33,795 nucleotides of DNA from Solirubrobacterales bacterium (GTDB lineage Bacteria; Actinomycetota; Thermoleophilia; Solirubrobacterales; Solirubrobacteraceae), in the NCBI GenBank assembly GCA_025963965.1, contig JAOPZS010000081.1:1-33795 (forward strand). The letters are read 5' to 3'. The translations under genes and the position numbers were made by a program. Positions 3,038-33,791 of this stretch are shown one piece after another (the first letter of the stretch is position 1; each line of letters starts with the position of its first letter). Under the pieces are notes generated by a model. It made no database searches and was not told where the DNA came from. It saw only the letters and a program-made list of their open reading frames with translations.

Positions 3038-3039
3038 GG

Positions 3040-6086: not shown

Positions 6087-6095
6087 CCCGCACGA

Positions 6096-7040: not shown

Positions 7041-7049
7041 GATCCCCCG

Positions 7050-7055: not shown

Positions 7056-7065
7056 GCGCTCTGGA

Positions 7066-7848
7066 ATGATGCCCGGCGTGAACGACGAGCAGACCCCGGC
7101 ACGCAGCTACGACCGATCGTCCGCCGAGCTGCGGCCCTGCACGATCGAGCCGGGCTTCATGCGCACCGCCACCGGCTCGGCGCTGATCTCGATGGGCGAG
7201 ACCCGCGTGATCTGCACGGCCTCCGCGCAGGAAAGCGTGCCGCGCTGGATGGCCGGGCAGGGTCGCGGGTGGTTGACGGCCGAGTACGGGATGCTCCCGG
7301 CGTCGACCGGCGAGCGCAAGCAGCGCGACGCGACGCGAGGGCGCCAGGACGGCAGGACCGTCGAGATCCAGCGGCTGATCGGACGCTCGCTGCGCGTCGT
7401 CGTCGACTTCGAGGCGCTCGGCGAGCGAACGATCTACCTCGACTGCGACGTGCTGCAGGCGGACGGCGGCACGCGCTGCGCCTCGATCACCGGCGCCTTC
7501 GTGGCGCTGTCGCTCGCCTGCGAGAAGCTGCAACGCCTCGGCCGGCTCGCGCGCAGCCCGCTGACGGGCTCGGTCGCGGCCATCTCCTGCGGTGTGATCG
7601 GGGGCGTGCCGCTGCTCGACCTCGACTACCCGGAGGACTCCAAAGCGGAGGTCGACGCAAACGTCGTGATGACCGGGGAGGGGGGCCTCGTCGAGCTGCA
7701 GACGACGGCCGAGCGCACGCCGCTCTCACGTGCGCACCTCGACGAGCTGCTCGGCCTCGCCGAGGCCGGCATCGCCCGCCTGCGCGAGGTCCAGGAGCAG
7801 GCGATCGCGTCCGCGACGGCGGACAGTTCCGAGCACTCGCCCGCCTGA
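7066..7848 (+). CDS. rph: Ribonuclease PH
   Basis: 260 residues. Phosphate-dependent 3'-to-5' exonuclease that trims tRNA 3' ends. Motifs: [15 protein letters not shown] near the N-terminus, [47 protein letters not shown] (phosphate-binding arginines), [20 protein letters not shown] and a C-terminal [21 protein letters not shown] at 7066 is used; a second ATG at 7069 and a GTG at 7078 are also possible. It ends 5 nt before rdgB, a pairing common in actinobacteria. Confidence 0.95.
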
Positions 7849-7853
7849 GCACG

Positions 7854-8444
7854 GTGCGGCTGCTGCTCGCAACCCACAACGACCACAAGCGCCGCGAGTT
7901 CGAGCGGATGCTCGCGGGTGCCGGCGAGCCGGTCGTGCTGGACGTGCTGGAGCGCTCCTTCGAGCTGCCTCCCGAGGACGGCGAGACGTTCGCCGAGAAC
8001 GCCCTCGGGAAGGCGCGCGCAGCTGCGGCGGGCCTGGCGCGCATCGCGATCGCGGATGACTCGGGGATCGTGGCGGCGGCGCTCGGCGGCGCCCCCGGAG
8101 TGCGCTCCGCCCGCTTCGCCGGAGCGGATGCGAGCGATCGGGAGAACCTCGAGAAGCTGCTCGCCGAGGCGCCCGCCGGGAGCGCGCTCGAATACGTCTG
8201 CGTGATCGCCTACGCCGATCCGGAGAGCGGCGAGGAGCGGCTGTTCGAGGGGCGCTGCGCCGGGCGGCTGACCGACCGGCCCCGCGGCGAGCGGGGGTTC
8301 GGCTATGACCCCGCGTTCATGCCGGATGACGGCCCCGACGGCCTGACGATGGCTGAGCTCAGCGACGAGCAGAAGGACGCGATCAGCCACCGCGGCCGTG
8401 CGGCGCGGGCGCTGCTCGCCTGGCTGGCGCTCAAAGCAGGTTGA
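7854..8444 (+). CDS. rdgB: Non-canonical purine NTP pyrophosphatase (RdgB/HAM1)
   Basis: 196 residues from the GTG at 7854. Hydrolyses dITP, XTP and similar damaged nucleotides to the monophosphates, keeping them out of DNA and RNA. Motifs: VRLLLATHNDHKRREFE at the N-terminus (the substrate-binding T-x-N-x-x-K loop), ADDSGIVAAALGGAPGV (catalytic acidic residues), ERGFGYDPAFMP and HRGRAARAL at the C-terminus. The homology begins exactly at this GTG, so longer frames are rejected. Likely one transcript with rph. Its end overlaps the convergent small membrane ORF by 14 nt. Confidence 0.95.
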   Translation: MRLLLATHNDHKRREFERMLAGAGEPVVLDVLERSFELPPEDGETFAENALGKARAAAAGLARIAIADDSGIVAAALGGAPGVRSARFAGADASDRENLEKLLAEAPAGSALEYVCVIAYADPESGEERLFEGRCAGRLTDRPRGERGFGYDPAFMPDDGPDGLTMAELSDEQKDAISHRGRAARALLAWLALKAG

Positions 8445-8571
8445 TCGCAGCCGCGGCCGCGACCGCCACGCCGAGGCCGGCGTAGCCGTGGTAGCCGGAG
8501 AGGAGCAGCAACAGCGCGGTCAGGAGCGCGACCAGCACGGTCGCAATCCAGGCGATACGCTCGATGGCCAC
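8431..8571 (-). CDS. Small two-helix membrane protein, unknown
   Basis: 46 residues from a GTG at 8571 (an upstream in-frame ATG at 8613 would add 14 residues). The sequence is MAIERIAWIATVLVALLTAL followed by a short SGYHGYAG turn and a second hydrophobic stretch ending AAINLL. This predicts two transmembrane helices separated by a Gly/Tyr hairpin. The amphipathic start and clean helix-turn-helix make it look like a real protein rather than chance. No function is known to me. It is convergent with rdgB and divergent from the HU gene. No Shine-Dalgarno is visible. Confidence 0.5.
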   Translation of the reverse strand: MAIERIAWIATVLVALLTALLLLLSGYHGYAGLGVAVAAAAAINLL

Positions 8572-8620
8572 GCCGTGATTGTTGCGCACGGGCGGGCGGG
8601 ACCCCATCCGCATGTGGTGT

Positions 8621-8626
8621 TAGCTT
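8621..8626 (+). promoter_or_regulatory. -10 box of the HU gene
   Basis: TAGCTT, followed about 33 nt later by the ATG with a strong GAGGAGG ribosome site between. Unlike many genes here, HU would have a normal short leader. Confidence 0.4.
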
Positions 8627-8659
8627 CGGAAAACCGACTGAACGAACGAGGAGGGGTGA

Positions 8660-8938
8660 ATGACAAAGTCTGAGCTGGTCGATCAGGTCGCCGACCGCGC
8701 CCGGCTGCCCAAGCAGGACGCGACACGCGCCGTGGACGCGGTGATCGCCACCGTCGAGGACGCGCTGCGGCGCGGCAGCGAGGTCGCCGTGTCGGGCTTC
8801 GGCAAGTTCCACGTCAGCGAGCGCGGCGCCCGCATGGGCGTCAACCCGCGAACCGGCGAGCGCATCCAGATCGCCGCCTCGCGCGTCCCCAGGTTCACCG
8901 CCGGCAGCGGCCTGAAGAGCGCCGTCAAGGGGCGCTGA
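8660..8938 (+). CDS. hup: HU-family histone-like DNA-binding protein
   Basis: 92 residues, normal HU length. Begins MTKSELVDQVADRARL, with the helical dimerisation region (DATRAVDAVIATVEDALRRG), the VAVSGFGKFHVSERGARMG beta segment, and the arm NPRTGERIQIAASRVPRFTAG with its Pro for DNA intercalation. Bends and compacts DNA as a dimer. Strong Shine-Dalgarno GAGGAGG 8 nt upstream of ATG. It lacks the long Lys/Ala-rich tail of mycobacterial HupB. Confidence 0.95.
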   Translation: MTKSELVDQVADRARLPKQDATRAVDAVIATVEDALRRGSEVAVSGFGKFHVSERGARMGVNPRTGERIQIAASRVPRFTAGSGLKSAVKGR

Positions 8939-8944
8939 GCGAAG

Positions 8945-9856
8945 CTGGGGCTCGGCGACACGCTGGCCGCCCGGGTGGCCGAGCGCCAGTCCCAGATCGT
9001 CCTCGGCATCGACCCCGATCCAGCCGACCTCTGGCCCCAGCAGCCGCCGCACCGGCAGCAGGCGCCGGCCGATGCCGCGGCCGCTGCCGTGCTCGCCCAC
9101 TGCCGGGCCCTGATCGACGCGGCCGGCCCCGCCTGCGTGGCGGTGAAGCCGCAGCTTGCCCGCTTCGAGGCGCTCGGCGAGCCTGGCCGCGCCGTGCTCG
9201 GCGCCGTCGTGGCGCACGCGCGAGCCGCGGGGCTGCTCGTGATCGCCGACGGCAAGCGCGGCGACATCGACGTCACGGCCGGCGCCTACGCAGCGTCGCT
9301 GTTCGGGGGGATGGAGTCGCCGTTCGGGCACATCGACGGACTCGGCGCGGACATGGCGACCGTCAACCCGCTGATGGGACGCGACGCGATCGCGCCGTTC
9401 CTCCAGGCGGCCCGCGCCGCCGGGGCCGGGGTGCTGCTGCTGGTCCGGACCTCCAACCCGGGAGCCGCCGACATCGAGGATCTGGCGCTGGCCGGTGGCG
9501 GGACCGTGTGGGAGCGAACCGCCGCGCTAGTCGACGAGCTCGGTGCAGCGGGGGTCGGAGACGAGGGCATCAGCGACGTCGGGGCGGTAGTCGGCGCGAC
9601 CGCCCCGTGGCACCTGGACAGGGCTCGCGAGCTGATGCCGAGGGCGACCTTCCTGCTCCCCGGGATCGGCGCCCAGGGGGGGCGCGTGGAGGAGTTGCAG
9701 GCGGCATTCGCCCCGGGCCGCGCCGGCGGCCTGGTGTCGGCGTCGCGCAGCATCGCCCGCGCTCACCTGGCAAATGGAGGCTCCCCGGCCGACGCAGCGC
9801 GGCTGGAGTCCGAGCGTCTGCGGAGGGCTGCTTGGGAGCTGTCGGCGGTCCGCTAG
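8945..9856 (+). CDS. pyrF: Orotidine 5'-phosphate decarboxylase (type 2)
   Basis: Decarboxylates OMP to UMP, the last step of de novo pyrimidine synthesis. The core begins VAERQSQIVLGIDPDPADLW and includes VAVKPQLARFEALG, the catalytic IADGKRGDIDVTAGAYA (D and K of the D-x-K-x-x-D charge network), DMATVNPLMGRDA and LLPGIGAQGGRV. This is the longer actinobacterial/myxobacterial type 2 subfamily. The first standard start is GTG at 8975, giving 293 residues. However, an in-frame stretch from a CTG at 8945 (LGLGDTLAARV) matches the usual F-G-D-x-L N-terminus of the family, so a CTG start is possible and is used here. No Shine-Dalgarno for either. The HU stop is 6 nt upstream of 8945. Confidence 0.9.
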   Translation: MGLGDTLAARVAERQSQIVLGIDPDPADLWPQQPPHRQQAPADAAAAAVLAHCRALIDAAGPACVAVKPQLARFEALGEPGRAVLGAVVAHARAAGLLVIADGKRGDIDVTAGAYAASLFGGMESPFGHIDGLGADMATVNPLMGRDAIAPFLQAARAAGAGVLLLVRTSNPGAADIEDLALAGGGTVWERTAALVDELGAAGVGDEGISDVGAVVGATAPWHLDRARELMPRATFLLPGIGAQGGRVEELQAAFAPGRAGGLVSASRSIARAHLANGGSPADAARLESERLRRAAWELSAVR

Positions 9857-9859
9857 CCT
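9832..9859 (+). promoter_or_regulatory. Possible promoter for the PfkB-family kinase
   Basis: TTGGGA (9832-9837), a 16 nt spacer and TAGCCT (9854-9859), overlapping the pyrF stop. The leader to the kinase ATG at 9921 would be about 55 nt and contains GCGCTC/GAGCGC (9867-9897), which could pair. Confidence 0.3.
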
Positions 9860-9920
9860 GTGTCGTGCGCTCTCCGGCGACGGACGTTTGGGAGCGCCTG
9901 GTGAAGGGGATCGACCCACG

Positions 9921-10880
9921 ATGATCATCACGGTCACGCTCAACGCCGCGATCGACAAGTCGCTCGCGGTGCCGAACTTCCGTCTGGGGAGACGCCACCG
10001 TACGGTGGAACAGCGCACGATGGCCGGCGGCAAGGGCGTCAACATCGCGCGCACGCTCAAGGCGCTCGGGCAGCCGGTGATCGCGACCGGCTTCGCCGGC
10101 GGCGCAACCGGCACGCACATCGTCGAGCAGCTAACCGAGGAGTCGATCCTCAACGACTTCGTGCGAATCCGCGAGGAGTCGCGCACCAACACCTCCGTGC
10201 TCGACCCGACGACGGGGGCCCAGACCGAGATCAACGAACGCGGCCCGTCCGTCACGGCCCGCGAGGTCGAGCTGTTCCGCGACAAGCTCCTGTACCTCGC
10301 CCGTGGCGCGGCGATCGTGGTGTTCGCCGGGTCGCTGCCGCGCGGCGTCGAGCCCGACCTGTACGCGTCGCTCGTGCACGACCTCGAGCGCTCGGACGTG
10401 ACGAGCGTCGTGGACACCGACGGCGAGCCGATGCGTCATGCCGTGCGCGCCGAACCCGACCTCGTCTCGCCGAACGTGCTCGAGGCCGAGGAGCTCGTCG
10501 GTCACGAGTTCGCGACCGACGAGGAGCGGACGCTCGCGATGAGCGAAATCGGCGAGCTGGGACCGCGCGAAGTGATCATGACGCTGCCCGACGGCGCGCT
10601 CGCCCAGGTGCTCGTCGACGGACAGCGGCGGCTCAAACGAGCCAGCATCGAGCCACGCGAGCCGATCGCCAAACGGGGCTCCGGGGACGCCTTCCTGGCG
10701 GGTTATCTGGCAGCGCGCTACGAAGGGCGCCCGCCCGACCAGTGCGTGCGCTTCGGCGTCGCCTGCGGCGCAGAGTCGACCGGTCGCTTCGGTGCCGGGC
10801 TGATCGACGCGCGCGAGGCGCGGCGGCTGATGGGCGATGTCGATCTCGTCGACGTCGAGCAGACCGCCGAGGTTTCCTAG
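9921..10880 (+). CDS. PfkB-family sugar-phosphate kinase (1-phosphofructokinase type)
   Basis: 319 residues. Starts MIITVTLNAAIDKSLAVPNF, as in LacC/FruK enzymes, then TMAGGKGVNIARTLKALGQ (PfkB signature 1). The C-terminal signature is AKRGSGDAFLAGYLAA, with the catalytic base Asp in GSGDAF. Expected reaction: ATP-dependent phosphorylation of fructose 1-phosphate, tagatose 6-phosphate or fructose 6-phosphate; the exact substrate cannot be assigned. No PTS or sugar transporter is adjacent, so a housekeeping hexose-phosphate kinase is as likely as fructose catabolism. An in-frame upstream extension to 9774 overlaps pyrF and lacks homology. The stop is followed 1 nt later by a long hairpin. Confidence 0.9.
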   Translation: MIITVTLNAAIDKSLAVPNFRLGRRHRTVEQRTMAGGKGVNIARTLKALGQPVIATGFAGGATGTHIVEQLTEESILNDFVRIREESRTNTSVLDPTTGAQTEINERGPSVTAREVELFRDKLLYLARGAAIVVFAGSLPRGVEPDLYASLVHDLERSDVTSVVDTDGEPMRHAVRAEPDLVSPNVLEAEELVGHEFATDEERTLAMSEIGELGPREVIMTLPDGALAQVLVDGQRRLKRASIEPREPIAKRGSGDAFLAGYLAARYEGRPPDQCVRFGVACGAESTGRFGAGLIDAREARRLMGDVDLVDVEQTAEVS

Positions 10881-10881
10881 G

Positions 10882-10947
10882 GGCGGAGCTGCTCCTCGAA
10901 ATGCTCTGGTGCTTGGGCAGGCGAGCATTTCGAGGAGCACCTCCGCC
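10882..10947 (+). terminator. Long hairpin, probable terminator of the PfkB-family gene
   Basis: 25 nt arms (10882-10906 and 10923-10947) are complementary at 24 of 25 positions, with a 16 nt loop; the inner 16 nt (GCTCCTCGAAATGCTC) pair perfectly. It starts 1 nt after the stop codon. No T-tract follows, as is common in very G+C-rich bacteria. Confidence 0.6.
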
Positions 10948-10962
10948 TGCGCAGCGAGCCGA

Positions 10963-11009
10963 GCGGCCCTGGCTTCGGCCGCGTGCCATCGCGAGGCGGC
11001 ATGGCATGC
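10963..11009. repeat. Two further small inverted repeats
   Basis: GCGGCC (10963-10968) pairs with GGCCGC (10977-10982). GCGTGCCAT (10981-10989) pairs with ATGGCATGC (11001-11009) with one mismatch. They fill the space between the two larger hairpins; role unknown. Confidence 0.4.
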
Positions 11010-11069
11010 TGAGGCACTTCCCGGGATGCTCGCCCGCGAGAGCACGAGAGCGTCACGGGAAGTGCCTCA
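11010..11069 (-). terminator. Hairpin overlapping the ABC permease stop codon, probable terminator
   Basis: TGAGGCACTTCCCG (11010-11023) is perfectly complementary to CGGGAAGTGCCTCA (11056-11069). The 32 nt loop contains a nested TGCTC/GAGCA stem. The stop codon of the permease gene (11067-11069) is inside the outer stem. Confidence 0.5.
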
Positions 11070-11942
11070 ACCCCCAGCGACGTCGCGGCGCAGGAACACC
11101 AGGTAGCCGCCGATCAGGCTCGGCACGGCGTACAGGGCGCACACCCAGGCGGAGTGGGCGATCGGAGCCCAGTCGGTCGGTGTCCGCAGGAGGCCGTGCC
11201 AGTTCGAGAACTGTTCGTTGAGCAGGTACGGGCGCAGGCCTTCGAGGCCGGGGATCTGCCCGACGATCAGCAGCAGGATCACGACGCCGATCGTGCCCAC
11301 GACCGCGGCGGCGCTGTTTCGCGTGACGGTCGAGAGCAGCACGGCGATGCTCGCCACGGTCAGCAGCGGGATCAGGTAGCAGAGGTTCGCGGCGAACACG
11401 AGCAGCAGGCCCTTGGGCGCCGCGACGACCGTCCCGGAGAACGTCGTGATGCTGTTGAACCCCCATGAGATGACCCCGGCGACCGTCGCGACGGCGGCCG
11501 AGAGGAAGACTGCGGCGATCGCGTAGCTCATCGCCGCGAGCACCTTCGCAGCGAACACCTGCCCACGGTCGACCGAACGGGTCAGGATCGTCTTGAGCGT
11601 GCCGTTTCCGTCCTCGTTGGCGACGATGTCGCCGGCCACGAGCGAGGCTACGACGGGCAGCATGAAGACCGACAGGAAGAGCAGCATCAGGACCGGCGTC
11701 GCCAGTCCCGACTGGGAGATCTGGGTGGCGAAGATGTTGTCGCGGTGGCCGCTCTGCTGGTGGATGTTTTCGACGACCACGAAGATCAGCGGCAGCGCGC
11801 AGACGAGAGCGAAGCCGAGATACGTGCGCTTCTGCGCGACGAGCTTGCGCAGCTCCCAGCGGTAAACCGCCAGGGTGCTCGGACGGCGCGTGCGGGGCGC
11901 CTGGCCTGCCAGCAGGGGAGGCGCGGCGGCGGCGCTGCTCAT
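11067..11942 (-). CDS. ABC transporter permease (ABC-2 type)
   Basis: 291 residues. After an N-terminal cytoplasmic segment (WELRKLVAQKRTYLGFA, typical of ABC-2 permeases) there are about six transmembrane segments: near ALVCALPLIFVVVE, LMLLFLSVFMLPVVASLVAG, AAVFLSAAVATVAGVI, GLLLVFAANLCYLIPLLTV, VVGTIGVVILLLIVG and a C-terminal helix. Pairs with the ATPase upstream; ABC-2 exporters move lipids, peptides, drugs or polymers outward, and the cargo is not known. The ATG at 11942 overlaps the ATPase stop (ATGA), so the two are coupled. Third gene of a three-gene operon. Confidence 0.9.
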   Translation of the reverse strand: MSSAAAAPPLLAGQAPRTRRPSTLAVYRWELRKLVAQKRTYLGFALVCALPLIFVVVENIHQQSGHRDNIFATQISQSGLATPVLMLLFLSVFMLPVVASLVAGDIVANEDGNGTLKTILTRSVDRGQVFAAKVLAAMSYAIAAVFLSAAVATVAGVISWGFNSITTFSGTVVAAPKGLLLVFAANLCYLIPLLTVASIAVLLSTVTRNSAAAVVGTIGVVILLLIVGQIPGLEGLRPYLLNEQFSNWHGLLRTPTDWAPIAHSAWVCALYAVPSLIGGYLVFLRRDVAGG

Positions 11943-12916
11943 TGGGCGCTCACCAGCTCGGCCTCCGCGCGTCCGTCGCCCCCGGCAGGCTCGCTGCCGG
12001 CGCCGGCCGTCTCGGTCAGGCGGAAGAACAGGTCCTCGAGCGTCGCCAGCTCGGGTGCCAGCGCGAGGATCCCGATGCCGGCCCGGCCGAGCGCGAGCGT
12101 CAGCTCGCCCACGTGGCGCTCGTCGGCCTGAAAGTCGATGCCGTCCTCCGCAGCGCGGGCGTTCTCCAGGCCCGGCTGCTCGCGCGCGATCTGCAGGGCC
12201 CGCTGATCGTCGGTGCTGCGCAGCCGGTACCCGGCGCCGCCCTGGCGGCGCAGGTCCGCGAGCGCGCCCTCGTAGACGACGCGGCCGGAGTCGACGATCG
12301 CTACGCGGTCGCACAGCTCCTGCACCTCGGGCAGCTGGTGGCTGGACAGCAGCACTGTGATGCCGTCGTCGGCGAGTCGCCTGATCAGCAGCCGCATGTC
12401 ACGCATCCCGGCCGGGTCGAGCCCGGTCGCAGGCTCGTCGAGGATCAGCAGGCGCGGGCGGCGCAGCAGCGCCGCGGCGATGCCCAGACGCTGGCGCATG
12501 CCGTGGGAGAACCCGCCGACCCGGTGCCCGGCTCGAGGGGTCAGCTCGACCACGTCGAGCACCTCCCCGATCCGGTCCTTCGCTCCGTCGCCGTCGAGCG
12601 CCGCCAGCATCTGCAGGTTCTTGCGGGCCGTCAGATAGGGATAGAAGCGCGGCGCCTCGACGAACCCGGCGACGCCGGCCAGCGCCCGGGCCCCCTCGCG
12701 CATCGGGTCGCGGCCGAACAGCTCGACCTTGCCCTCACTGGGCACGATCAGCCCCAGCGCCATTCTCAGCGTCGTCGTCTTGCCGGCGCCGTTCGGCCCG
12801 AGGAAGCCGTACACGTCGCCCTGATCGACGTTGAGGTCGATGTGGTCGACCGCAAGGACCTCCTTGTAGCGCTTGACCAGCCCGCGCGCCCGCACGGGCG
12901 GCGCGTCGGCGCCCAC
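11939..12916 (-). CDS. ABC transporter ATP-binding protein
   Basis: 325 residues. Walker A GPNGAGKT at 40-47, signature FSHGMRQRL at 136-144, Walker B LLILDEP at 156-162, then SSHQLPEVQELCD with the switch His. The C-terminal 80 residues form the extra domain usual in ABC-2 export ATPases. The GTG start at 12916 abuts the TAG stop of the LolA-like gene with no gap, and the end overlaps the permease start by 4 nt. Drives export by the adjacent permease. Confidence 0.93.
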   Translation of the reverse strand: MGADAPPVRARGLVKRYKEVLAVDHIDLNVDQGDVYGFLGPNGAGKTTTLRMALGLIVPSEGKVELFGRDPMREGARALAGVAGFVEAPRFYPYLTARKNLQMLAALDGDGAKDRIGEVLDVVELTPRAGHRVGGFSHGMRQRLGIAAALLRRPRLLILDEPATGLDPAGMRDMRLLIRRLADDGITVLLSSHQLPEVQELCDRVAIVDSGRVVYEGALADLRRQGGAGYRLRSTDDQRALQIAREQPGLENARAAEDGIDFQADERHVGELTLALGRAGIGILALAPELATLEDLFFRLTETAGAGSEPAGGDGRAEAELVSAQ

Positions 12917-14041
12917 CTACAACCCTCGCGCCAGCGCCTCGACGGCCGCCGGCTGCACAGCGCCGGCGAGCACGTAGCGCACGCCGCCTCGCTCGAACGT
13001 GAGGATCGTGCCGAGCTCGGTGCGCAGCTCGCTCGCCGTCGCCGAGCCGATTTTGACCTTCGGCAGGTTTTCGGTGCTCGACGAGGAGCTCTTGCCGGAG
13101 CTCTTGGCCTTCAGCACGCCGATCGAGGTGATCCCGTGACCCGACGTCGTGACGTCGGGCTTCGAGGCGCTGTCAGGCTTGGCGGAGTTGGCACCTGCGC
13201 TCTTGGAGGGCAGCGTCAGGTCTTCGACCTTCGCACCGGCCGGGGGCGTGATCGTGAACACGGAGGAGCTGACCGGCCCGTAGGAGACTTCGCTGGCGGC
13301 CAGTTCGATCACCGGCGCCGAGCTCGTCGAGGAGTAGACGGCGGTGCGCAGCGGCAGGCCGTTGGCGGCGTCGAAGGACAGCTCGGCGCCGCCGATCAGG
13401 CTGCCGGATTCGTTGGGCGAGACGCGCACCGTGTACGCGGGCTGCCCGGCGACGTTCGCGGGAGTCGCTTCTGAGAGCTTCGCGTGCTTGCGCGCTTCGG
13501 CCAGCGTTTCTTCGATCTTCGCGACCGACGGAACTTCGTGGCCGGTGCCGGTCGGCTCGGCCGCTTTCGCCTTGTCGCCCGAGCCTTCGTTCTTGGGCGT
13601 GTAGCGATACAGGGTGTTGCTGGACGCGTCGTACATCGTCACCGTTTGGCCGTCATAGACGATCTGCGTGTCGCCCTTTTCAGCCTGCAGCTCGAGGCGC
13701 ATGCGCCCGTCCGCGCTGACCCAGAGTCGCCCGCTCGCGCCGTTCAGCAGCGGGCTGGAGGTGAGGGCGCCCGCCCCGGTCTGCCCATCCCCGCCGGTCG
13801 CCAGCTGAGCGCCTTCGACGAGGTGGTTCGTGAGCTTCACCGACGCGCTGTAGCCCTGAACCGAGTTGCCGCTCTTGGCGCCGGCGAGGGCGTCGTGGAC
13901 GGCCTGCGCGAGCGGCTTCGCAGGGGGCTTCGCTCCCGAGCCGAGCGCCAGCGCGATCGCGGTGGCGGACACGCCGATCGCGATCGTGGCAACTGACAAG
14001 AGCAGCAGTCGAGCGACTGAGATTCGACGCAGCAGGTACAC
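12917..14041 (-). CDS. Exported LolA/RseB-like protein
   Basis: 374 residues. The N-terminus has a signal anchor (RLLLLSVATIAIGVSATAIA, about residues 10-34) with no lipobox. The body is a beta-rich domain with SGRLWVSADGRMRLELQAEK, QIVYDGQTVTMYDASSNTLY and AGQPAYTVRVSPN, typical of the LolA/outer-membrane-lipoprotein-sorting-like and RseB-like fold, which binds lipid or acylated ligands. A Ser/Lys-rich linker (about 280-320) precedes a C-terminal stretch. GTG at 14041 with GAAAGGTGA about 10 nt upstream. The gene is immediately followed by an ABC exporter, so it probably hands over or senses the exporter's substrate outside the membrane. A TACCCT (14083-14088) may be its -10 box. Confidence 0.8.
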   Translation of the reverse strand: MYLLRRISVARLLLLSVATIAIGVSATAIALALGSGAKPPAKPLAQAVHDALAGAKSGNSVQGYSASVKLTNHLVEGAQLATGGDGQTGAGALTSSPLLNGASGRLWVSADGRMRLELQAEKGDTQIVYDGQTVTMYDASSNTLYRYTPKNEGSGDKAKAAEPTGTGHEVPSVAKIEETLAEARKHAKLSEATPANVAGQPAYTVRVSPNESGSLIGGAELSFDAANGLPLRTAVYSSTSSAPVIELAASEVSYGPVSSSVFTITPPAGAKVEDLTLPSKSAGANSAKPDSASKPDVTTSGHGITSIGVLKAKSSGKSSSSSTENLPKVKIGSATASELRTELGTILTFERGGVRYVLAGAVQPAAVEALARGL

Positions 14042-25426: not shown

Positions 25427-26899
25427 CTAGGACCCGGCCCGGCGCAGCTCGGCTCGCTTGACCTTGCCGGAGGACGTCTTCGGCAGCTCGGCTGCGAAGT
25501 CGACGATCCGCGGGTACTTGTACGGCGCCGTCACGCTCTTGACGTGGTCCTGAAGCTCGCCGGCGAGCTGCGGTCCGGGAGCGAACCCGTCGCGCAGCAC
25601 GACCACCGCCCGCACCACGCTCCCCCGCTCCTCGTCCGGGGAGGCGACGGCCGCCGCCTCGGCGACGGCCGGGTGCGCGACGAGCGCCGACTCGACCTCG
25701 AACGGCCCGATCCGGTACCCGGCTGAGACGATCACGTCGTCGCCGCGTCCCTGGAAGTACAGCCAGCCGTCCTCGTCGCGGCTGACCTGGTCTCCGGTCG
25801 CCCACGCCGCGCCGGCGCGGCGGTCATCGCTGAGCCACGCGCCGTCCTCACCCCGGCTCACCTGCTCGCCCAGGTAGCCCAGGAAGAACGTCGGCACGCT
25901 CGCCGGAGCCACGAGCAGCTCGCCGTGCTCGATCGACAGCTCGACGCCGGGCAGCGCGGGACCCATCGAGCCCGGCCGCGGCTCGCCGTCACCGGGCGCA
26001 CCGGTCAGCTGCCCCGTCTCCGTCTGTCCGTAGCCGTCGCGGATCCGCAGCCCGGTCGCCTCCTCCCAGGCACGCAGCACCTCGGGGTTGAGCGCCTCGC
26101 CGGCCGCGACCATCCCGCGCAGGTGGGGCAGCGGCCCGAGCGTCGCACGCTTGGCGATCACGCGGTACTCGGTCGGCGCCATGCACAGCACGCCGACGCG
26201 CTCGCGCACGAGCACCTCCAGGCGCTCGTGCGGGTCGAAGCGGGCGTCGTGAAGCAGCGCGGCGGCGCCCTGCAGCCACGGCGCGATGAACACGTTGCGC
26301 GCGGACTTCGACCAGCCGCTGGCGGCGGTGCACCAGACGAGCTCGCCCGGGCGCGGCGCCAGCCAGTGCTCGGCCTGCAGTCGCTGGCCGTACAGGTAGC
26401 GCTGCGCGTGGAGCACGCCCTTCGGCTCCCCGGCGGTCCCGCTTGTGAACGTGATCAGGCACGCGTCGCGCTCGGAGAGCTCGGCCGCCGCTGCCGGCTC
26501 GGCGTCGTACAGCGCCTCGTCGGGAACGCTCAGCACCGGGACGTCGAGGCCGCGCAGCTCACCGAGGTCGCGCTCGTCCGCCACGATCACGCTGGGCCGT
26601 GCCGCCTCGATGCGCAGCCGGAGATCCTTCGTGCGCAGCTGCTCGGTGCAGGGCAGGACGACCGCGCCGAGCCGAAAGCAGGCGATCATCACGAGCACCC
26701 ACTCGGGGCGGTTGCCGATCACGGTCATCACGACGTCGCCGCGGGCCACGCCGTTCGCGGCGAGCGTGCCGGCCAGGCGGGCAGAGCGCTCGGCGACCTC
26801 GCCGAAGCTCCACTCCCGCCGCGCGCCGTCGCGCGCAAGCTCGACCAGCGCGAGGCGCTCGGCCGGCGCGGCGTCGACGACCTCGGCGGCGAAGTTCAT
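25427..26899 (-). CDS. Acyl-CoA synthetase (AMP-forming)
   Basis: 490 residues from the ATG at 26899. Activates a carboxylic acid to acyl-CoA through acyl-AMP. Motifs: ACLITFTSGTAGEPKGVLHA (AMP/phosphate loop), RIRDGYGQTETGQLTG, AWATGDQVSRDEDGWLYFQG, GDDVIVSAGYRIGPFEVE (hinge) and the catalytic C-terminal Lys in LPKTSSGKVKRAELRR. The overall pattern (WCTAASGWSKSARNVFIAPW) resembles medium-chain/ACSM-type ligases more than acetyl-CoA synthetase. TACGAT lies 9 nt before the ATG. Divergent from an acyl-CoA dehydrogenase, suggesting a shared fatty- or branched-acid catabolic role; the chain length is unknown. Confidence 0.9.
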   Translation of the reverse strand: MNFAAEVVDAAPAERLALVELARDGARREWSFGEVAERSARLAGTLAANGVARGDVVMTVIGNRPEWVLVMIACFRLGAVVLPCTEQLRTKDLRLRIEAARPSVIVADERDLGELRGLDVPVLSVPDEALYDAEPAAAAELSERDACLITFTSGTAGEPKGVLHAQRYLYGQRLQAEHWLAPRPGELVWCTAASGWSKSARNVFIAPWLQGAAALLHDARFDPHERLEVLVRERVGVLCMAPTEYRVIAKRATLGPLPHLRGMVAAGEALNPEVLRAWEEATGLRIRDGYGQTETGQLTGAPGDGEPRPGSMGPALPGVELSIEHGELLVAPASVPTFFLGYLGEQVSRGEDGAWLSDDRRAGAAWATGDQVSRDEDGWLYFQGRGDDVIVSAGYRIGPFEVESALVAHPAVAEAAAVASPDEERGSVVRAVVVLRDGFAPGPQLAGELQDHVKSVTAPYKYPRIVDFAAELPKTSSGKVKRAELRRAGS

Positions 26900-27090: not shown

Positions 27091-28302
27091 ATGGCCGTAG
27101 CGACCCCGTACACGGACAAGACCGACGAGCAGCGCGCGATCACGGAGATGGTCCACCAGTTCGTCGACGAGCAGATCCTGCCGAACGCCGAGCACTACGA
27201 CCACGAGGACTCCTTCCCCGAGCCGATCGTCGAGCAGATGAAGGAGCTGGGGCTGTTCGGAGTGACGATCCCCGAGGAGTACGGCGGCATGGGGCTCGAC
27301 CTGACGACCTACGCGATGATCGTCGAAGAGCTCTCGCGCGGCTGGATCTCGATCTCCGGGGTGATCAACACCCACTTCATCGGCTCCTACCTGCTGATGA
27401 AGTTCGGGACCGACGAGCAGAAGCACAGGTACCTGCCGCGGATGGCCACCGGTGAGATCCGCGCCGCCTTCTCGCTGTCGGAGCCCGAGCTCGGCTCGGA
27501 CGTGCAGGCGATCAAGACGTCCGCCAAGAAGCAGGACGACGGCGCCTACGAGATCAACGGCCAGAAGATGTGGGTCACCAACGGGCTGCTCTCCTCGCTC
27601 GTCTTCACGCTCGTGAAGACCGACCCGGATGCCGAGCCGCGCCACCGCGGGATGACCTGCTTCATCTGCGAGAAAGAGCCCGGCGTCGGCGAGAACACCG
27701 GCGATCTGGCCGGTCTCAACGTCCCGCCGAAGATCAAGAAGATGGGCTACAAGGGGGTCGAGTCCACCGAGCTCGTCTTCGACGGTTACCGCTGCCCGGC
27801 CGAGAACATCCTCGGCGGCGAGGACGACGGCCTGAACAAGGGTTTCGTGCAGATGATGGACGCGCTCGACCTCGGCCGCGTCAACGTCGCCGCACGCGGT
27901 GTCGGGCTCGCGCAACGCGCGCTGGAGCTGGCCCTGCGCTACTCGCAGGAGCGCAAGACGTTCGGCAAGCCGATCGCCGAGCACCAGGCGATCCAGTTCA
28001 AGCTCGCCGACATGGCCACGCAGGTCGACGCCGCGCGCCTGCTGGTTCGCCGCGCCGCGCTGATGAAGGACGCGGGCGAGCGCTCGGACCTCGAGGCCGG
28101 GATGGCGAAGCTGTTCGCCTCCGAGGCCGGCCGCTTCTGCGCGGAGGAGTGCCTGCGCATCCACGGTGGCTACGGCTACTCCAAGGAGTACGAGATCGAG
28201 CGCATCTATCGCGACGCCCCTCTGCTGCTGATCGGGGAGGGAACCTCCGAGATCCAACGCATGGTGATCGGACGCAAGCTCCTGCAGCGTCATAAGATCT
28301 GA
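27091..28302 (+). CDS. Acyl-CoA dehydrogenase
   Basis: 403 residues. FAD-dependent alpha,beta-dehydrogenation of an acyl-CoA, passing electrons to ETF. Domains: N-terminal helical (TDEQRAITEMVHQFVDEQIL), middle beta domain with AAFSLSEPELGSDVQAIKTS and KMWVTNG, C-terminal helical with RVNVAARGVGLAQRALELAL and QERKTFGKPIAEHQAIQFKL. The catalytic Glu is in LLIGEGTSEIQRMVIGRKLL, the position used by short-chain enzymes. Substrate not determined. Followed 52 nt later by an SCP2-like gene in the same direction. Confidence 0.95.
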   Translation: MAVATPYTDKTDEQRAITEMVHQFVDEQILPNAEHYDHEDSFPEPIVEQMKELGLFGVTIPEEYGGMGLDLTTYAMIVEELSRGWISISGVINTHFIGSYLLMKFGTDEQKHRYLPRMATGEIRAAFSLSEPELGSDVQAIKTSAKKQDDGAYEINGQKMWVTNGLLSSLVFTLVKTDPDAEPRHRGMTCFICEKEPGVGENTGDLAGLNVPPKIKKMGYKGVESTELVFDGYRCPAENILGGEDDGLNKGFVQMMDALDLGRVNVAARGVGLAQRALELALRYSQERKTFGKPIAEHQAIQFKLADMATQVDAARLLVRRAALMKDAGERSDLEAGMAKLFASEAGRFCAEECLRIHGGYGYSKEYEIERIYRDAPLLLIGEGTSEIQRMVIGRKLLQRHKI

Positions 28303-28354: not shown

Positions 28355-28732
28355 ATGGCCGATGACGCCAAGGCTCTGATCGAACTCGCAGTGCGCAGGT
28401 TCATCGAGGAGGTGCCTGCCCTCGCGCCCATCAAGCTGGTGGTCGGCATCGAGATGCGCGGCCGCGGCGACGTCCAGCAGTTCCGGCTCGAGATGCCCGA
28501 CGTGAAGGTCACCCGCGGCCCGGCCGCCGACGCACGGGTGCGCGTCGACATGCGGCGCGAGTTCTTCAACGTGATGGCACGCGAAGGCAAGATCGCCGAC
28601 TGGGTCGAGGCGTTCAGCTACGGCCAGGCCAAGGCATCCGGCCCCGATCAGATCGTCAAGCTGATCGTCAACGTCGTCGAGCGCCAGATCGAGCGCGACC
28701 GCACGCCGAAGGCCCGCCGCCAGGCATCCTGA
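28355..28732 (+). CDS. SCP2-like (sterol-carrier-type) lipid-binding protein
   Basis: 125 residues. The alpha/beta pattern with KLVVGIEMRGRGDVQQFRLE, VTRGPAADARVRVDMRREFF and a hydrophobic C-terminal helix (SGPDQIVKLIVNVVERQ) fits the SCP2 fold, which binds acyl-CoAs or other lipids in a hydrophobic tunnel. GAGGGAGG ribosome site before the ATG. Likely co-transcribed with the acyl-CoA dehydrogenase and may carry its substrate. The assignment is by pattern, without catalytic residues to confirm it. Confidence 0.65.
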   Translation: MADDAKALIELAVRRFIEEVPALAPIKLVVGIEMRGRGDVQQFRLEMPDVKVTRGPAADARVRVDMRREFFNVMAREGKIADWVEAFSYGQAKASGPDQIVKLIVNVVERQIERDRTPKARRQAS

Positions 28733-30299: not shown

Positions 30300-30545
30300 T
30301 CAGGCCAGGACGGCGCCGCCGTCGTAGAGCTTGATGACCTTCACCGCTCCGGACGGGGTCGCATCGAGGCACAGCCTGCAGAGCACGCACTCGTCGAGGT
30401 TGGACTCGACGAGTTCCAGGCGCCCATCGCCGTCCTGGGCGTAGATGTCGACCGGGCAGGCCTCGGTGAGCCTGCGGGCGGTCTCCGGGTCGGCGGCGAT
30501 CGCGTCGTCGACCTCGACCGCGATGAACGTGGCTTCGGCTCTCAT
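30300..30545 (-). CDS. FixX-like single [4Fe-4S] ferredoxin
   Basis: 81 residues. Four cysteines: C30 in EACPVDIY, then C53-x2-C56-x2-C59 in DECVLCRLC. The order (C-P first, then C-x2-C-x2-C) is that of FixX-type ferredoxins, holding one cluster; the second cluster of ordinary bacterial ferredoxins is missing. The ATG at 30545 overlaps the sucD-like stop (ATGA), so it is translated together with the ligase. A redox protein coupled to a CoA ligase is unusual; it may deliver electrons to or from an enzyme of the same pathway encoded elsewhere. Confidence 0.85.
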   Translation of the reverse strand: MRAEATFIAVEVDDAIAADPETARRLTEACPVDIYAQDGDGRLELVESNLDECVLCRLCLDATPSGAVKVIKLYDGGAVLA

Positions 30546-31480
30546 GCCGAGACCCCGCCGGCGCGGCTTCGCTCTGAGATCTTCGAGCGGATCATCTCGG
30601 GGATGTCCTCGATGCGCTCGGCGACGCTGATGCCCGCCTGGGCGAGGCGCGCGATCTTCTCGGAGGCGGTGTCCTCCTTGCCTTCGACGATCGTGCCGGC
30701 GTGCCCGAAGCTCATGCCGGGCATCTCGTCCATGAAGCGGCCGGCCATGAAGGCGACGACCGGCAGCCGCGAGGAGTGCTCGGTCACCCAGCCGGCCAGC
30801 TCGGCCTCCATGCGCCCGCCCGGCTCGGTGTAGATGACGATCCCCTCGGTTTGCGCGTCGGCCTCGAACAGCGGCATCAGCTCGGCGTAGCTCGAGCCGA
30901 TGATCGCGTCGCCGCCGATCGAGACGGCTGTCGACTGGCCGAGCCCGGCCGCGCTGAGCGTCGAGGACATCTCGGTCGTCATGCCGCCGGAGCGCGAGAT
31001 CACGCCGATCGGTCCGGGGGTGTAGGCCTGGGCGGCGTTTTTGGCCGGGCCGCCGATGCCGCCCATCTTGATCACGTCGGGGACGATGATCCCGAGGCAG
31101 TTGGGGCCGATGATCCGCGCGCCACGCAGCGCCGCCAGCTCGACCATCTCCGCGACGTCGCGGCGCGGGATCCGCTCGGTCACGATCACGATCAGCTTGA
31201 CGCCGTTCTCGATCGCCTCGAACACCGCGTCCTTGGTGAAGGCGGGAGGCACGGTGACGACCGAACCGTCGATCGGCGCTCCGTGGTGCTCGACGGCCTG
31301 GGCGACGGTGTCGAACACCGGCACGCCGTGGACGTCGCGGCCGAGGCGTCCGGGCGTGACCCCGCCGACGACCTTCGCGCCGCTCCCGTAGTCGAGGCAC
31401 TCACGCGTCAGGTTCACGGCCTCGCGACCGGTGATGCCCTGCACGATGAACGTCGTCTCGGCGTCGATCAGGATCGACAT
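30542..31480 (-). CDS. Succinyl-CoA synthetase-like alpha subunit (probable malate- or other dicarboxylate-CoA ligase)
   Basis: 312 residues. N-terminal CoA-binding domain with IVQGITGREAVNL (canonical enzymes have a G-F-T-G-x-x-G loop here) and VGGVTPGRLGRDVHGVPVFD. The ligase domain has IIGPNCLGIIVPD, GVISRSGGMTTEM and the phosphorylated His H260 in SFGHAGTIVEG. Together with the beta subunit it should make an acyl-CoA through a phosphohistidine intermediate. The ATG overlaps the beta stop by one base (TGATG). Because the first gene of the operon is a malyl-CoA lyase, I infer malate rather than succinate as substrate; the TCA-cycle role remains possible. Confidence 0.85.
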   Translation of the reverse strand: MSILIDAETTFIVQGITGREAVNLTRECLDYGSGAKVVGGVTPGRLGRDVHGVPVFDTVAQAVEHHGAPIDGSVVTVPPAFTKDAVFEAIENGVKLIVIVTERIPRRDVAEMVELAALRGARIIGPNCLGIIVPDVIKMGGIGGPAKNAAQAYTPGPIGVISRSGGMTTEMSSTLSAAGLGQSTAVSIGGDAIIGSSYAELMPLFEADAQTEGIVIYTEPGGRMEAELAGWVTEHSSRLPVVAFMAGRFMDEMPGMSFGHAGTIVEGKEDTASEKIARLAQAGISVAERIEDIPEMIRSKISERSRAGGVSA

Positions 31481-32691
31481 CAGGCGGCAACTCCCTGGAT
31501 CTTCTCGACGGCCCGGCGGGCCGCCTCGTTGAGCGACACCGAACGGTCCGCGTAGTCGACGCCGTACTTCTCGAGGATCTTGAAGCCCTCCTCCTCCCAG
31601 GCGCCGGGGATGCGGAAGATCGCGATCTTCTCCGACGGGTCGAAGCCCAGCTCCAGACACGCTTTGATCACGCCCCGGGCGACGATGTCCACGCGCGTGT
31701 TCGAGACGATCGACATCATCACGGCGATCTGCTCGACGCCCGGCTTGCCGAGCACGAGCTTGGCCAGGCCACACGTCTTGGCGACCGACGGGTTGCCGCC
31801 GATCTCGCAGTAGTTGGCAGGTTTGCCGCCGTGTGCGCGGACCGCGTCGAACAGCGTCAGCGAGCCGCCGCCCGCCCCGATCACCAGGCCGAGGTTGCCG
31901 TCGAACTCGGTCACGTTCCCGGCCACGCCGCGGTGGTCGGTCGCGTCGACCTCCTCGCCGGCCAGCTCGAACGGTGTCGCCTCGCGCGCCTGGCGCGTCT
32001 CCTCCGGGCCGACGCCGAGGTCGGCGAGCAGCTTGGCGTGGCGGCCGCGCGCCTCGTTCTCGATGTCCATGTGCGCGTCGAGCGCGACGAAGGAGCCGTC
32101 CTTCAGGCGCCCGAGCGGGTTGATCTCCGCCAGCGTCAGGTCGTGCTCGAGGAACAGGCGCGCGAGGCGGGTGAGGATCGGGGTGATGCGGTTCAGCGGC
32201 GACCCGGAGACGCCGGTCTGGGCGATCACCTGCTTGGCCTGGAAGTCCGAGACGGGCAGCAGCGTCGAGAAGTGCCCGCGACCGACGTGGTCGGGATGCT
32301 CCTCGGCGACCTGCTCGATGTCGATGCCGCCCATGTCGGAGAAGAGCATCACGGGCTGCTTGCGAAGGCCGTCCCACACGACTCCCGCGTAGTACTCCTG
32401 CTCGACCTCGGCCTTGGGGTCGACGAGCACGCCGCGCGGCATGTGGCCGCCGATCTCCAGCGCGAGGATGTCCTCGGCGTGGGCGGCCGCCTCCTCCGGC
32501 GTGTCGGCGAACTTGACGCCGCCGGCCTTCATCCGGCCGCCGGTCAGCACCTGGGACTTGATCACGACCGACCCGCCGATGCGCTCGGCGGCCTCCTTCG
32601 CCGCCTCGCGCGAGGTGGCGAAGCCGAAGTCGGTGACCGGGATGCCGGCCCGCTTGACGATCTCGCGGGCCTCGAACTCGAAGAACCTCAT
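31480..32691 (-). CDS. Succinyl-CoA synthetase-like beta subunit, divergent ATP-grasp type
   Basis: 403 residues. ATP-grasp domain: MRFFEFEAREIVKRAGIPV, KSQVLTGGRMKAGGVKFADT (residues 45-64; usual enzymes have GGRGKAGGVK), MGGIDIEQVAEEHP, LAEINPLGRLKDGSFVALDA. The C-terminal ligase domain has AHGGKPANYCEIGGNPS (293-302 region; usual is D-V-G-G-G-A) and MMSIVSNTRVDIVARGVI where TCA-cycle enzymes have the N-I-F-G-G-I motif. It is therefore a distinct branch of the family. Position 29 nt after the malyl-CoA lyase suggests malate-CoA ligase. TAGGGT lies 10 nt before the ATG, so an internal promoter is possible. Confidence 0.85.
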   Translation of the reverse strand: MRFFEFEAREIVKRAGIPVTDFGFATSREAAKEAAERIGGSVVIKSQVLTGGRMKAGGVKFADTPEEAAAHAEDILALEIGGHMPRGVLVDPKAEVEQEYYAGVVWDGLRKQPVMLFSDMGGIDIEQVAEEHPDHVGRGHFSTLLPVSDFQAKQVIAQTGVSGSPLNRITPILTRLARLFLEHDLTLAEINPLGRLKDGSFVALDAHMDIENEARGRHAKLLADLGVGPEETRQAREATPFELAGEEVDATDHRGVAGNVTEFDGNLGLVIGAGGGSLTLFDAVRAHGGKPANYCEIGGNPSVAKTCGLAKLVLGKPGVEQIAVMMSIVSNTRVDIVARGVIKACLELGFDPSEKIAIFRIPGAWEEEGFKILEKYGVDYADRSVSLNEAARRAVEKIQGVAA

Positions 32692-32701
32692 GGGGCGCGG
32701 A

Positions 32702-32707
32702 ACCCTA
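32702..32707 (-). promoter_or_regulatory. -10-like box before the SucC-like gene
   Basis: TAGGGT on the minus strand, 10 nt before the ATG at 32691, within the 29 nt gap after the malyl-CoA lyase gene. Confidence 0.25.
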
Positions 32708-32720
32708 TACCGAGCCGCGC

Positions 32721-33791
32721 TCAGGCCGCGGAGCCGGCGGGCGCGAAGCCGTAGGCCTCGGCGAGCTCCGGGTCCTTGCGCGCCAGCATCTCCGCGAGGT
32801 CGACCATGACCTTGCACTGCTTCCAGGTCGCGTCGTCCTGCATCTTGCCGTCGATCATGTGGACGCCCCGGCCGTCAGGGATTGCCTCGATCACCTTCTT
32901 GGCGAACGCGACCTCATCGGGGTCGGGCGAGAAGACCTTCTTGGCGATGTCGATCTGCACCGGGTGCAGCGACCAGGCGCCGACGCAGCCGAGCAGGAAC
33001 GCGGCGCGGAACTGCGTCTCGCAGCCCTCGACGTCGCGGATGTCCCCATAGGGGCCGTAGAACGGCAGGATCTCGGCGGCCGCGCAGGCGTCGACCATGC
33101 GAGCGATCGAGTAGTGCCACGGGTCCTGCTGGGCGCTCGCGCGGGGAGCGTCGGGGTTCTCGGGATCCGGGTCCTCGATCACGCGGTAGCCGGGGTGGCC
33201 GCCGCCGACCCGCGTCGTCTTCATCCGCCGGTTGGCGGCGAGGTCGGCGGGGCCGAAGCTCATGCCCTGCATGCGCGGCGAGGCGGTGGCGATCTCCTCC
33301 AGGTTGACGACGCCCTGGGCCGTCTCGAGGATCGCGTGGACGAGGATCGGCCGGTCGATCCCCGCCTTCGCCTCGAGCTGGGCGAGCAGGCGGTCGACGA
33401 AGTGGATGTCCCAGGGGCCTTCGACCTTGGGCACCATGATGACCTCGAGCTTGTCGCCGATCTCCAGGACCAGCCGCGTCAGGTCGTCGAGCACCCATGG
33501 CGAGTCGAGGGCGTTGACGCGGGTCCACAGCGCGGTGTCGCCGAGGTCGATCTCCCTGCCCACGGTGACGAGCCCCTCCCGCGCCGCCTCCTTGTTGTCG
33601 ACCGGGACGGCGTCCTCCAGGTTGCCGAGGAGGATGTCCGTCTTCGCCGCGATGTCGGGCAGCTTCGCCCGCATCTTCTCGTTGGAGGCGTCGAAGAAGT
33701 GGATCATGCGCGAGGGCTTGACGGGAATCTCGCGCACGGGGTCGGGAGCGCCGACGGCCAGGGGCTTGAAGAAGTCTCGGGGGTTTCTCAT
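32721..33791 (-). CDS. mcl: L-malyl-CoA/beta-methylmalyl-CoA lyase (CitE-like superfamily)
   Basis: 356 residues from the ATG at 33791. Reversibly cleaves L-malyl-CoA to acetyl-CoA and glyoxylate (and often beta-methylmalyl-CoA to propionyl-CoA and glyoxylate). From memory it matches the Chloroflexus aurantiacus enzyme along its whole length: [92 protein letters not shown]. Mg-binding Glu and Asp correspond to E156 in ILETAQG and D183 in GPADLAANR. The N-terminus aligns with that enzyme, so the gene is complete, although only 4 nt upstream are visible and a GTG at 33794 is an alternative. First visible gene of the operon. Confidence 0.92.

Follow-up and report, generated by a model that had tools for sequence, protein, structure and literature searches.

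Gene content and arrangement of the locus

The window analysed here is a stretch of 33,795 nucleotides from a Solirubrobacterales bacterium (GCA_025963965.1) and makes up the entire contig JAOPZS010000081.1 (G000:C12 in our numbering) of an assembly with 3.03 Mb in 147 contigs and a completeness of 89.7%. At its right end, four open reading frames (ORFs) on the minus strand encode, in this order, a malyl-CoA lyase-like protein (Mcl), the beta and alpha subunits of a SucCD-like CoA ligase and a small ferredoxin-like protein (Table 1). An earlier annotation made from the letters of the window alone, here termed the sequence-only reading, had described four minus-strand genes spaced by +29, -1 and -4 nt, and this was borne out by the ORF coordinates: 29 nt separate Mcl from beta (32720-32692), beta and alpha overlap by one nucleotide (TGATG) and alpha and the ferredoxin gene by four (ATGA). 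The Mcl gene starts with ATG at 33791, and an in-frame GTG is also present at 33794. The contig ends 4 bases from the Mcl start codon and the assembly contains no sequence to the right of the operon.

A second intact copy of the four genes was found in the same order on contig C118 of the same genome. Its products are identical to those of the window copy to 84% (Mcl), 86% (beta), 87% (alpha) and 57% (ferredoxin). Given this copy and the recurrence of the set among 81 loci (the window copy and the best 80 of 141 relatives found with beta), the four-gene arrangement is far beyond chance. The tetranucleotide frequencies of C12 and C118 correlate with 0.942, compared to 0.87-0.89 for halves of one contig; since L026, a locus of another genome, reached 0.943 in the same test, this likeness does not prove that both contigs belong to one genome. 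The 16 other ligase-bearing genomes of the order each carry a single ligase copy.

Mcl is predicted to be a Chloroflexus-type lyase

Compared to solved structures, the Mcl of the window reached 527 bits with 4l7z and 4l80, which we take to be the malyl-CoA lyase (MCL) of Chloroflexus aurantiacus as the residue numbering fits, and 525 bits with 6kin. It scored only 198 and 195 bits with 5ugr and 4l9y, which represent the Rhodobacter/Methylobacterium type. The sequence-only reading had already assigned the gene to the Chloroflexus type and is confirmed in this respect; as judged from these scores, Mcl is a Chloroflexus-type malyl-CoA lyase. An excerpt of PMC3832036 names six residues of the Chloroflexus enzyme (E60, D61, R92, E157, D184 and D318) and assigns a glutamate in place of D318 to the malyl-CoA thioesterase group. 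Both Mcl copies of the genome retain E60, D61, R92, E157, D184 and the equivalent of D318. By its residues, Mcl is thus a predicted lyase and not a thioesterase of the Rhodobacter group.

The ligase differs from succinyl-CoA synthetase and MtkAB

The nearest curated NCBIfam names for both ligase subunits are SucC and SucD. Beta scored 253.6 bits with the SucC equivalog (cutoff 370) and alpha 283.6 bits with the SucD equivalog (cutoff 336), both under the respective cutoffs, and beta stayed far under the cutoff of 604 for the NCBIfam malate-CoA ligase beta subunit with 183.9 bits. A GHAG stretch of alpha aligns with the GHAG of the alpha subunit of Thermus succinyl-CoA synthetase (SCS), which presumably holds the phospho-histidine. 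The sequence-only reading had made its malate-CoA ligase assignment depend in part on whether the genome holds another, canonical sucCD, and had proposed to search for it. Such a pair was found on contig C96, where a separate sucC (32-34% identical) is followed by a SucD-like stretch (41%); judged by likeness, the genome thus has a canonical SucCD apart from the operon ligase, which is not its only sucCD.

In a tree of 23 rows, from which L080 was left out by the length/stop filter, the ligases formed one clade of their own with a support of 100/99, and the two Mtk rows grouped with E. coli SCS, also with 100/99. The substrate loop was compared in an alignment in which 87 of 91 rows passed the same kind of filter, with some loci repeating one genome. 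The SCS loop NIFGGIxRxD is replaced: 86 of the 87 family rows have a VSNTR core, and the remaining row is gapped there. The beta loop of the window reads MMSIVSNTRVD, and the citryl-CoA synthetase (CCS) 6hxq has GGTANNTRID. Among the rows printed, the ligase has NTR[IV]D, GGNP and an HRG segment in common with 6hxq, and neither SCS nor Mtk shows them; GGNP and HRG occur in 7/7 family rows and DHRG in 6/7. In the same seven ligase rows, the second arginine of the CCS motif VVRRNG is changed to isoleucine (IFRIPG). The substrate loop may form a pocket for a 2-hydroxy dicarboxylate. For this, we assume that the loop corresponds to the citrate-binding part of ATP-citrate lyase (ACLY), presumably with the citrate residues N346, T348 and R379, which are not named in the source checked.

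Taken together, the sequence comparisons indicate that the ligase is neither an SCS nor the MtkAB of methylotrophs. Orthology to MtkAB was rejected as the malate-CoA ligase cutoff was missed and Mtk grouped with E. coli SCS instead. One beta relative, P0002, has 559 amino acids compared to the usual 400-430 and may represent a fusion or a misjoined frame.

The ferredoxin-like protein accompanies the ligase

The ferredoxin-like protein has C30 in a CPVDI-like motif, followed by C53, C56 and C59. These four cysteines were invariant in 56 aligned sequences, and in a wider alignment they were kept in 85, 84, 84 and 84 of 85 sequences, with one row gapped. The AlphaFold model had a pLDDT of 97.7; Foldseek returned weak matches of a generic ferredoxin-like fold and no match with E <= 0.001. 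No match was obtained in Pfam (E 1e-3) or NCBIfam (E 1e-5) either. The gene follows alpha in 74 of the 81 loci; in the other seven, the sequence stops no more than 97 bases past the preceding match. It is a constant companion of the ligase, present wherever the locus has room, and the ferredoxin that the sequence-only reading had called dedicated proved inseparable from the ligase. One may guess that it is a ligase subunit with a redox-sensing or structural function.

Distribution of the operon and its lyase partners

Alpha accompanies beta in 79/81 loci, and the loci without it likewise stop no more than 97 bases past the preceding match. The unit of beta, alpha and ferredoxin recurs in records of Solirubrobacterales, Binatota, Myxococcota and Chloroflexota. 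When 110 genomes sampled across the class were searched for the ligase, it was found with at least 69% identity in 17 of the 22 that belong to the order; relatives with 51-52% identity occur in G004 and G016, which are members of another family. The remaining 86 genomes gave full-length matches of at most 38% or none, and short partial matches of up to 43%.

A Chloroflexus-type Mcl ends at most 1.2 kb upstream of beta in 41/81 loci, a count that may include L086 with its 29% CitE type, and an Mcl-like match was present anywhere in the fetched stretch in 58 loci. Six genomes from the other 23 loci were searched whole, and Mcl was located elsewhere in all six. Twelve ligase-bearing genomes were reached via the loci (one of them, G120, looks identical to the panel genome G005); all twelve have a malyl-CoA-lyase-like gene, which is of the Chloroflexus type (68-85%) in eleven. 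The position and kind of the lyase vary by lineage. In the Binatota/Myxococcota loci L078, L080 and L083, Mcl follows the ferredoxin gene. In L086 (Chloroflexota), a CitE type with 29% identity lies directly upstream of the ligase, and a search of this whole genome gave no Chloroflexus-type Mcl. In L110 and L111, the loci of G004 and G016, a third CitE-like type (31-36%; 285 amino acids in L110) directly follows the ferredoxin gene and a DctPQM TRAP transporter precedes the four-gene set. By sequence likeness, at least three CitE-like lyase types thus adjoin the ligase, namely, the Chloroflexus type, the 29% type and the 31-36% type. L040 was dropped as a further case of partner exchange, as its Rhodobacter-like lyase lies 2.9 kb upstream and its genome holds a Chloroflexus-type Mcl as well.

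Some loci deserve mention on their own. L060 and L074 (Svornostia abyssi J379 and Paraconexibacter antarcticus 02-257) contain ligase and ferredoxin, with Mcl and a crotonyl-CoA carboxylase/reductase (Ccr) in the same genomes. L035, L041, L062 and L017 come from three records with Bifidobacterium breve and one with Chlamydiae in the title; with ligases of 76-86% identity and Solirubrobacterales-like neighbours, these titles are probably wrong. L112 (G004:C8:70000-84000) has at 2098-14001 another SucCD pair, 33% and 39% identical to that of the window, followed by a CitE-like lyase and malic-enzyme-like and GlcD-like proteins (both under cutoffs). This set is divergent from POR/KOR-like genes (gene names partly by eye) and resembles a cycle that would turn glycolate into acetyl-CoA by way of malyl-CoA.

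Candidate genes of the ethylmalonyl-CoA pathway near the operon

Approximately 20 kb upstream of the second operon copy, C118 encodes a Ccr (492 bits, over the cutoff of 378.55), next to it a mutase of the methylmalonyl-CoA-mutase type (465 bits, over the TIGR00641 cutoff of 303.8) and a MeaB-like GTPase (201 bits, under the cutoff of 240.75). A MaoC hydratase that resembles mesaconyl-CoA hydratase and a phosphoenolpyruvate (PEP) carboxykinase (PEPCK), named by eye, adjoin the operon itself. The best PDB match of the MaoC protein was the beta-methylmalyl-CoA dehydratase 8hgn with 95 bits and its best stretch in the first half; it scored 58 bits with the NCBIfam 2-methylfumaryl-CoA hydratase, for which the cutoff is 560. 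The acyl-CoA dehydrogenase (ACAD) of the window matched FadE3 best (409 bits), followed by 6es9 (296 bits), which we take to be a methylsuccinyl-CoA dehydrogenase. In L086, beta, alpha and ferredoxin lie within 6 kb of a Ccr (573 bits), together with an acyl-CoA dehydrogenase, two MaoC proteins and a mutase.

Of the 24 panel genomes, 21 have a Ccr over the cutoff, among them 16 of the 17 ligase-bearing genomes of the order; in the controls, this was the case for 1 of 14 genomes. In eight of these 16 ligase-bearing genomes, a single contig carries Ccr, Mcl and ligase no more than 34 kb apart, and the other eight are drafts with the genes on 2-3 contigs. Isocitrate lyase was found neither in the approximately 90% complete assembly of the window nor in any of the 17 ligase-bearing genomes of the order; 21/24 panel genomes had no match and three ligase-lacking ones partial matches of 38-53 bits. 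Malate synthase had no match in the assembly of the window and was detected in 4/24 panel genomes, three of which bear the ligase (G047, G091 and G099; 3/17). The same searches found isocitrate lyase in eight and malate synthase in six of the control genomes.

Proposed role in malate formation

We propose that Mcl and the ligase together form malate with a gain of ATP and thereby close the ethylmalonyl-CoA (EMC) pathway, a reading to which we give about an even chance. Ccr, the mutase, the acyl-CoA dehydrogenase and the MaoC hydratase would lead to beta-methylmalyl-CoA, which Mcl would split into propionyl-CoA and glyoxylate. The same enzyme would also form (S)-malyl-CoA from glyoxylate and acetyl-CoA. 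From malyl-CoA, ADP and Pi, the ligase would then produce malate, CoA and ATP. Malate would in turn supply oxaloacetate and PEPCK. Since the pathway makes glyoxylate and no malate synthase was found here, the ligase is the obvious candidate for the step from malyl-CoA to malate. Substrate, direction and pathway role are what we infer in this proposal.

Several observations weigh against it. The mutase may be a methylmalonyl-CoA mutase, and the ACAD may be an acyl-CoA dehydrogenase of another kind. The reactions proposed do not involve the ferredoxin, and in the tree the ligase is linked to CCS with a support of 91/84, subject to a long-branch warning. CoA ligases of this sort can run either way, so that the direction does not follow from gene content. 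Ccr and ligase are also found apart: five of the twelve ligase-bearing genomes reached via the loci have no Ccr over the cutoff, namely, four Binatota/Myxococcota records, three of them with Mcl directly after the ferredoxin gene, and the Solirubrobacteraceae genome G114. The same applies to the order genome G099 and to G004 and G016, where the ligase set is combined with the other CitE and the TRAP transporter. The module is thus not bound to the EMC pathway everywhere, and its TRAP-linked version suggests that it can also act in dicarboxylate breakdown. Conversely, the ligase is missing from four genomes of the order that contain Ccr and Mcl (G053, G082, G095 and G106) and is thus not obligatory, and G023 has Ccr with neither Mcl nor ligase.

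The four genomes with Ccr and Mcl alone share a separate CitE paralog (34-35% by tblastn and 37-39% in another search); three of them have it at a distance of 2-6 kb from Mcl. CitE paralogs of the ligase-bearing G011, G087 and G035 are of other types, and weaker matches occur in the likewise ligase-bearing G005, G071, G077 and G103. One idea was that a malyl-CoA thioesterase takes the place of the ligase in genomes without it. The shared paralog keeps an aspartate where the Rhodobacter thioesterase group has a glutamate according to an excerpt of PMC3832036. As a lead only, it might provide an alternative route from malyl-CoA to malate in the ligase-lacking genomes.

A distant Ccr-like protein was noticed near the ligase at L080:6538-7743 (60 bits) and L083:5396-6559 (the genome of L083 matched with 64 bits). 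Both are Myxococcota/Deltaproteobacteria records, and no Ccr over the cutoff was found in their genomes.

A bolder version of the proposal would be that the operon encodes a new two-enzyme, ATP-conserving malate synthase, a C4 equivalent of CCS and citryl-CoA lyase, with the [4Fe-4S] ferredoxin-like protein as an obligatory, integral redox-sensing subunit of the ligase, that it replaces malyl-CoA thioesterase and malate synthase, and that several CitE subfamilies were recruited to it across the order and beyond. In this full form it appears doubtful.

The operon type is real, conserved and, as far as the literature searches reach, undescribed. The sequence-only reading knew of no pathway with this exact set, and likewise no description of the gene set was found in the open-licence literature (titles and abstract openings), nor anything that pairs 'ethylmalonyl-CoA pathway' with 'Thermoleophilia'. 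If the proposal is true, there is a version of the EMC pathway that regains ATP during growth on acetate-like carbon, at a point where the textbook pathway loses the energy of a thioester; it would occur in an order for which most knowledge comes from metagenome-assembled genomes. The proposal would also give a name to a ligase family that currently goes under the labels succinyl-CoA or citryl-CoA synthetase; these labels were seen among the 120 best of at least 7971 proteins at E <= 1e-30, the rest of which may include ordinary SCS. Moreover, a Chloroflexus-type Mcl gene alone would be no sign of the 3-hydroxypropionate bi-cycle.

Alternative explanations

The sequence-only reading had left two directions open, ATP-dependent malate activation and cleavage or glyoxylate assimilation. 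In the former, the ligase would spend ATP to convert malate into malyl-CoA, which Mcl would cleave to acetyl-CoA and glyoxylate in a serine cycle or in dicarboxylate catabolism. Mtk is a precedent for it and the DctPQM transporter in front of the four-gene set in G004 and G016 is consistent with it; still, we consider this direction rather unlikely for the window. PEP carboxylase, one of the enzymes that the sequence-only reading had suggested looking for, had no match in the assembly and was over the cutoff in 9/24 panel genomes and 5/17 ligase-bearing genomes of the order. An aminotransferase such as serine-glyoxylate aminotransferase, a glycerate dehydrogenase or a hydroxypyruvate reductase was not recognised by eye in the operon neighbourhoods read in this genome, with no genome-wide search made. 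Furthermore, the EMC pathway itself yields glyoxylate that has to be consumed, and malate synthase was not found. The serine cycle is disfavoured by the missing PEP carboxylase and by the neighbourhood content, which differs from that of two mtkAB operons (see below), and by the grouping of Mtk with E. coli SCS. Glyoxylate assimilation is the part of the earlier claim that fits better, because the second copy lies among EMC genes, neither malate synthase nor isocitrate lyase was found, and PEPCK is present rather than PEP carboxylase.

The ligase might instead be specific for another hydroxydicarboxylate compatible with Mcl, such as citramalate or beta-methylmalate. An excerpt of PMC3832036 terms the C. 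aurantiacus MCL tri-functional and reports electron density in MCL crystals that suggested (S)-citramalyl-CoA. The CCS-like loop and the variation of partner lyases by lineage would be in line with such a substrate, which we nevertheless regard as unlikely: the EMC setting calls for malyl-CoA, and nothing for citramalate was seen by eye in the neighbourhoods read, with no search made for genes of transport or CoA transfer.

It is improbable that the ligase is a second SCS for EMC-derived succinyl-CoA, placed beside Mcl by pathway grouping only. The EMC pathway yields propionyl-CoA and from it succinyl-CoA, and the best curated names are those of SucC and SucD. However, the scores remained under both equivalog cutoffs, the NIFGGIxR loop has given way to the VSNTR core, three CitE-like types are found beside the ligase, and 16/17 ligase-bearing genomes of the order have another SucC (31-35%).

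A true CCS acting with a citryl-CoA-cleaving lyase has little to recommend it. For some relatives, JGI or NCBI gives the name 'citryl-CoA synthetase large subunit', and the loop, GGNP and HRG features are shared; against this, the second arginine of VVRRNG is isoleucine in all seven printed rows, sequence and residues both mark the partner as a malyl-CoA lyase, and the genome keeps its canonical SucCD.

Finally, a partnership of ligase and ferredoxin with a 2-oxoglutarate:ferredoxin oxidoreductase in the tricarboxylic acid cycle, as the constant ferredoxin and weak multi-piece matches of up to 72 bits in G029, G035 and G041 might suggest, can practically be dismissed as it is contradicted by the genome distribution: TIGR03710 was over the cutoff in 5/24 panel genomes, comprising 2/17 ligase-bearing (G065 and G099) and 3/5 ligase-lacking genomes of the order, and the genome of the window gave one match of 24 bits.

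Other genes in the window

Two further genes near the operon have relatives at other loci (Table 1). The product that we take to be SCP2-like had no NCBIfam match at E 1e-20, and the acyl-CoA synthetase reached 387 bits with AcylCoAsynMbcS, under the cutoff of 850. Far from the operon, two adjoining minus-strand ORFs at 2-2562 presumably resemble hydantoinase/oxoprolinase subunits.

Table 1. Features of the window and CitE paralogs at other loci
Feature	Position	Strand	Basis
Chloroflexus-type (S)-malyl-CoA/beta-methylmalyl-CoA lyase (Mcl), predicted, 356 amino acids from ATG	32721..33791	-	527 bits to 4l7z; six residues
SucC-like ligase beta (ATP-grasp), 403 amino acids, predicted malate-CoA ligase beta	31480..32691	-	own clade, CCS-like loop
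SucD-like ligase alpha, 312 amino acids, predicted malate-CoA ligase alpha	30542..31480	-	SucD equivalog 283.6 bits; GHAG
Small single-cluster [4Fe-4S]-type ferredoxin-like protein, 81 amino acids	30300..30545	-	C30, C53, C56, C59; cluster type inferred
Acyl-CoA dehydrogenase, candidate methylsuccinyl-CoA dehydrogenase	27091..28302	+	84% to ACAD near ligase in 25/81 loci
SCP2-like small protein	28355..28732	+	same gene cluster in 21/81 loci
AMP-forming acyl-CoA synthetase	25427..26899	-	relatives in 20/81 loci (likeness judged by eye)
Separate CitE paralog	L097:15652-16572; L095:5971-6909; L098 ~11500-12400; L100 ~457-1326		ligase-lacking genomes of the order

Comparison with known systems

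MtkAB and malyl-CoA lyase of serine-cycle methylotrophs resemble the operon in having a SucCD-type ligase near a CoA ester lyase and the same predicted chemistry. The Mtk loop remains SCS-like (NIFAGINRCD), whereas the operon ligase has the VSNTR core and does not share the grouping of Mtk with E. coli SCS. The two Mtk operons examined contain an aminotransferase and a D-glycerate dehydrogenase and no ferredoxin, in contrast to the ferredoxin of the operon described here.

The EMC pathway of Rhodobacter is closed by Mcl1 and the (3S)-malyl-CoA thioesterase Mcl2. It shares Ccr, mutase, MaoC and Mcl, the lack of isocitrate lyase and the step from malyl-CoA to malate, here a predicted one, with the setting found here, but uses a thioesterase that is predicted to be replaced here by an ATP-forming ligase, and the Mcl here is of the Chloroflexus type. 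Both Rhodobacter enzymes are named in an excerpt of PMC3832036.

The 3-hydroxypropionate bi-cycle of C. aurantiacus employs the same type of lyase with all six named residues; here, its neighbours are instead a SucCD-like ligase and, on C118, also Ccr. An excerpt of PMC9947541, checked for a claim on Solirubrobacterales, ties the 3-hydroxypropionate pathway to Chloroflexia.

CCS and citryl-CoA lyase follow a similar two-step logic of ligase and lyase and have loop features in common with the operon ligase, but they act on a C6 substrate with a different lyase, and one CCS arginine is replaced in the ligase here. This system is known from Hydrogenobacter.

The malyl-CoA route of Syntrophobotulus glycolicus reportedly conserves ATP. 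An excerpt of PMC8092247 mentions the proposal that this organism uses glyoxylate through malyl-CoA, and a paper cited there on Moorella has 'with ATP synthesis' in its title. Set beside the operon by description, both share the use of glyoxylate via malyl-CoA with energy conservation and are anaerobes, unlike the setting of the operon. By analogy, their use of glyoxylate through malyl-CoA may serve as a precedent for ATP-yielding malate formation by Mcl and the ligase.

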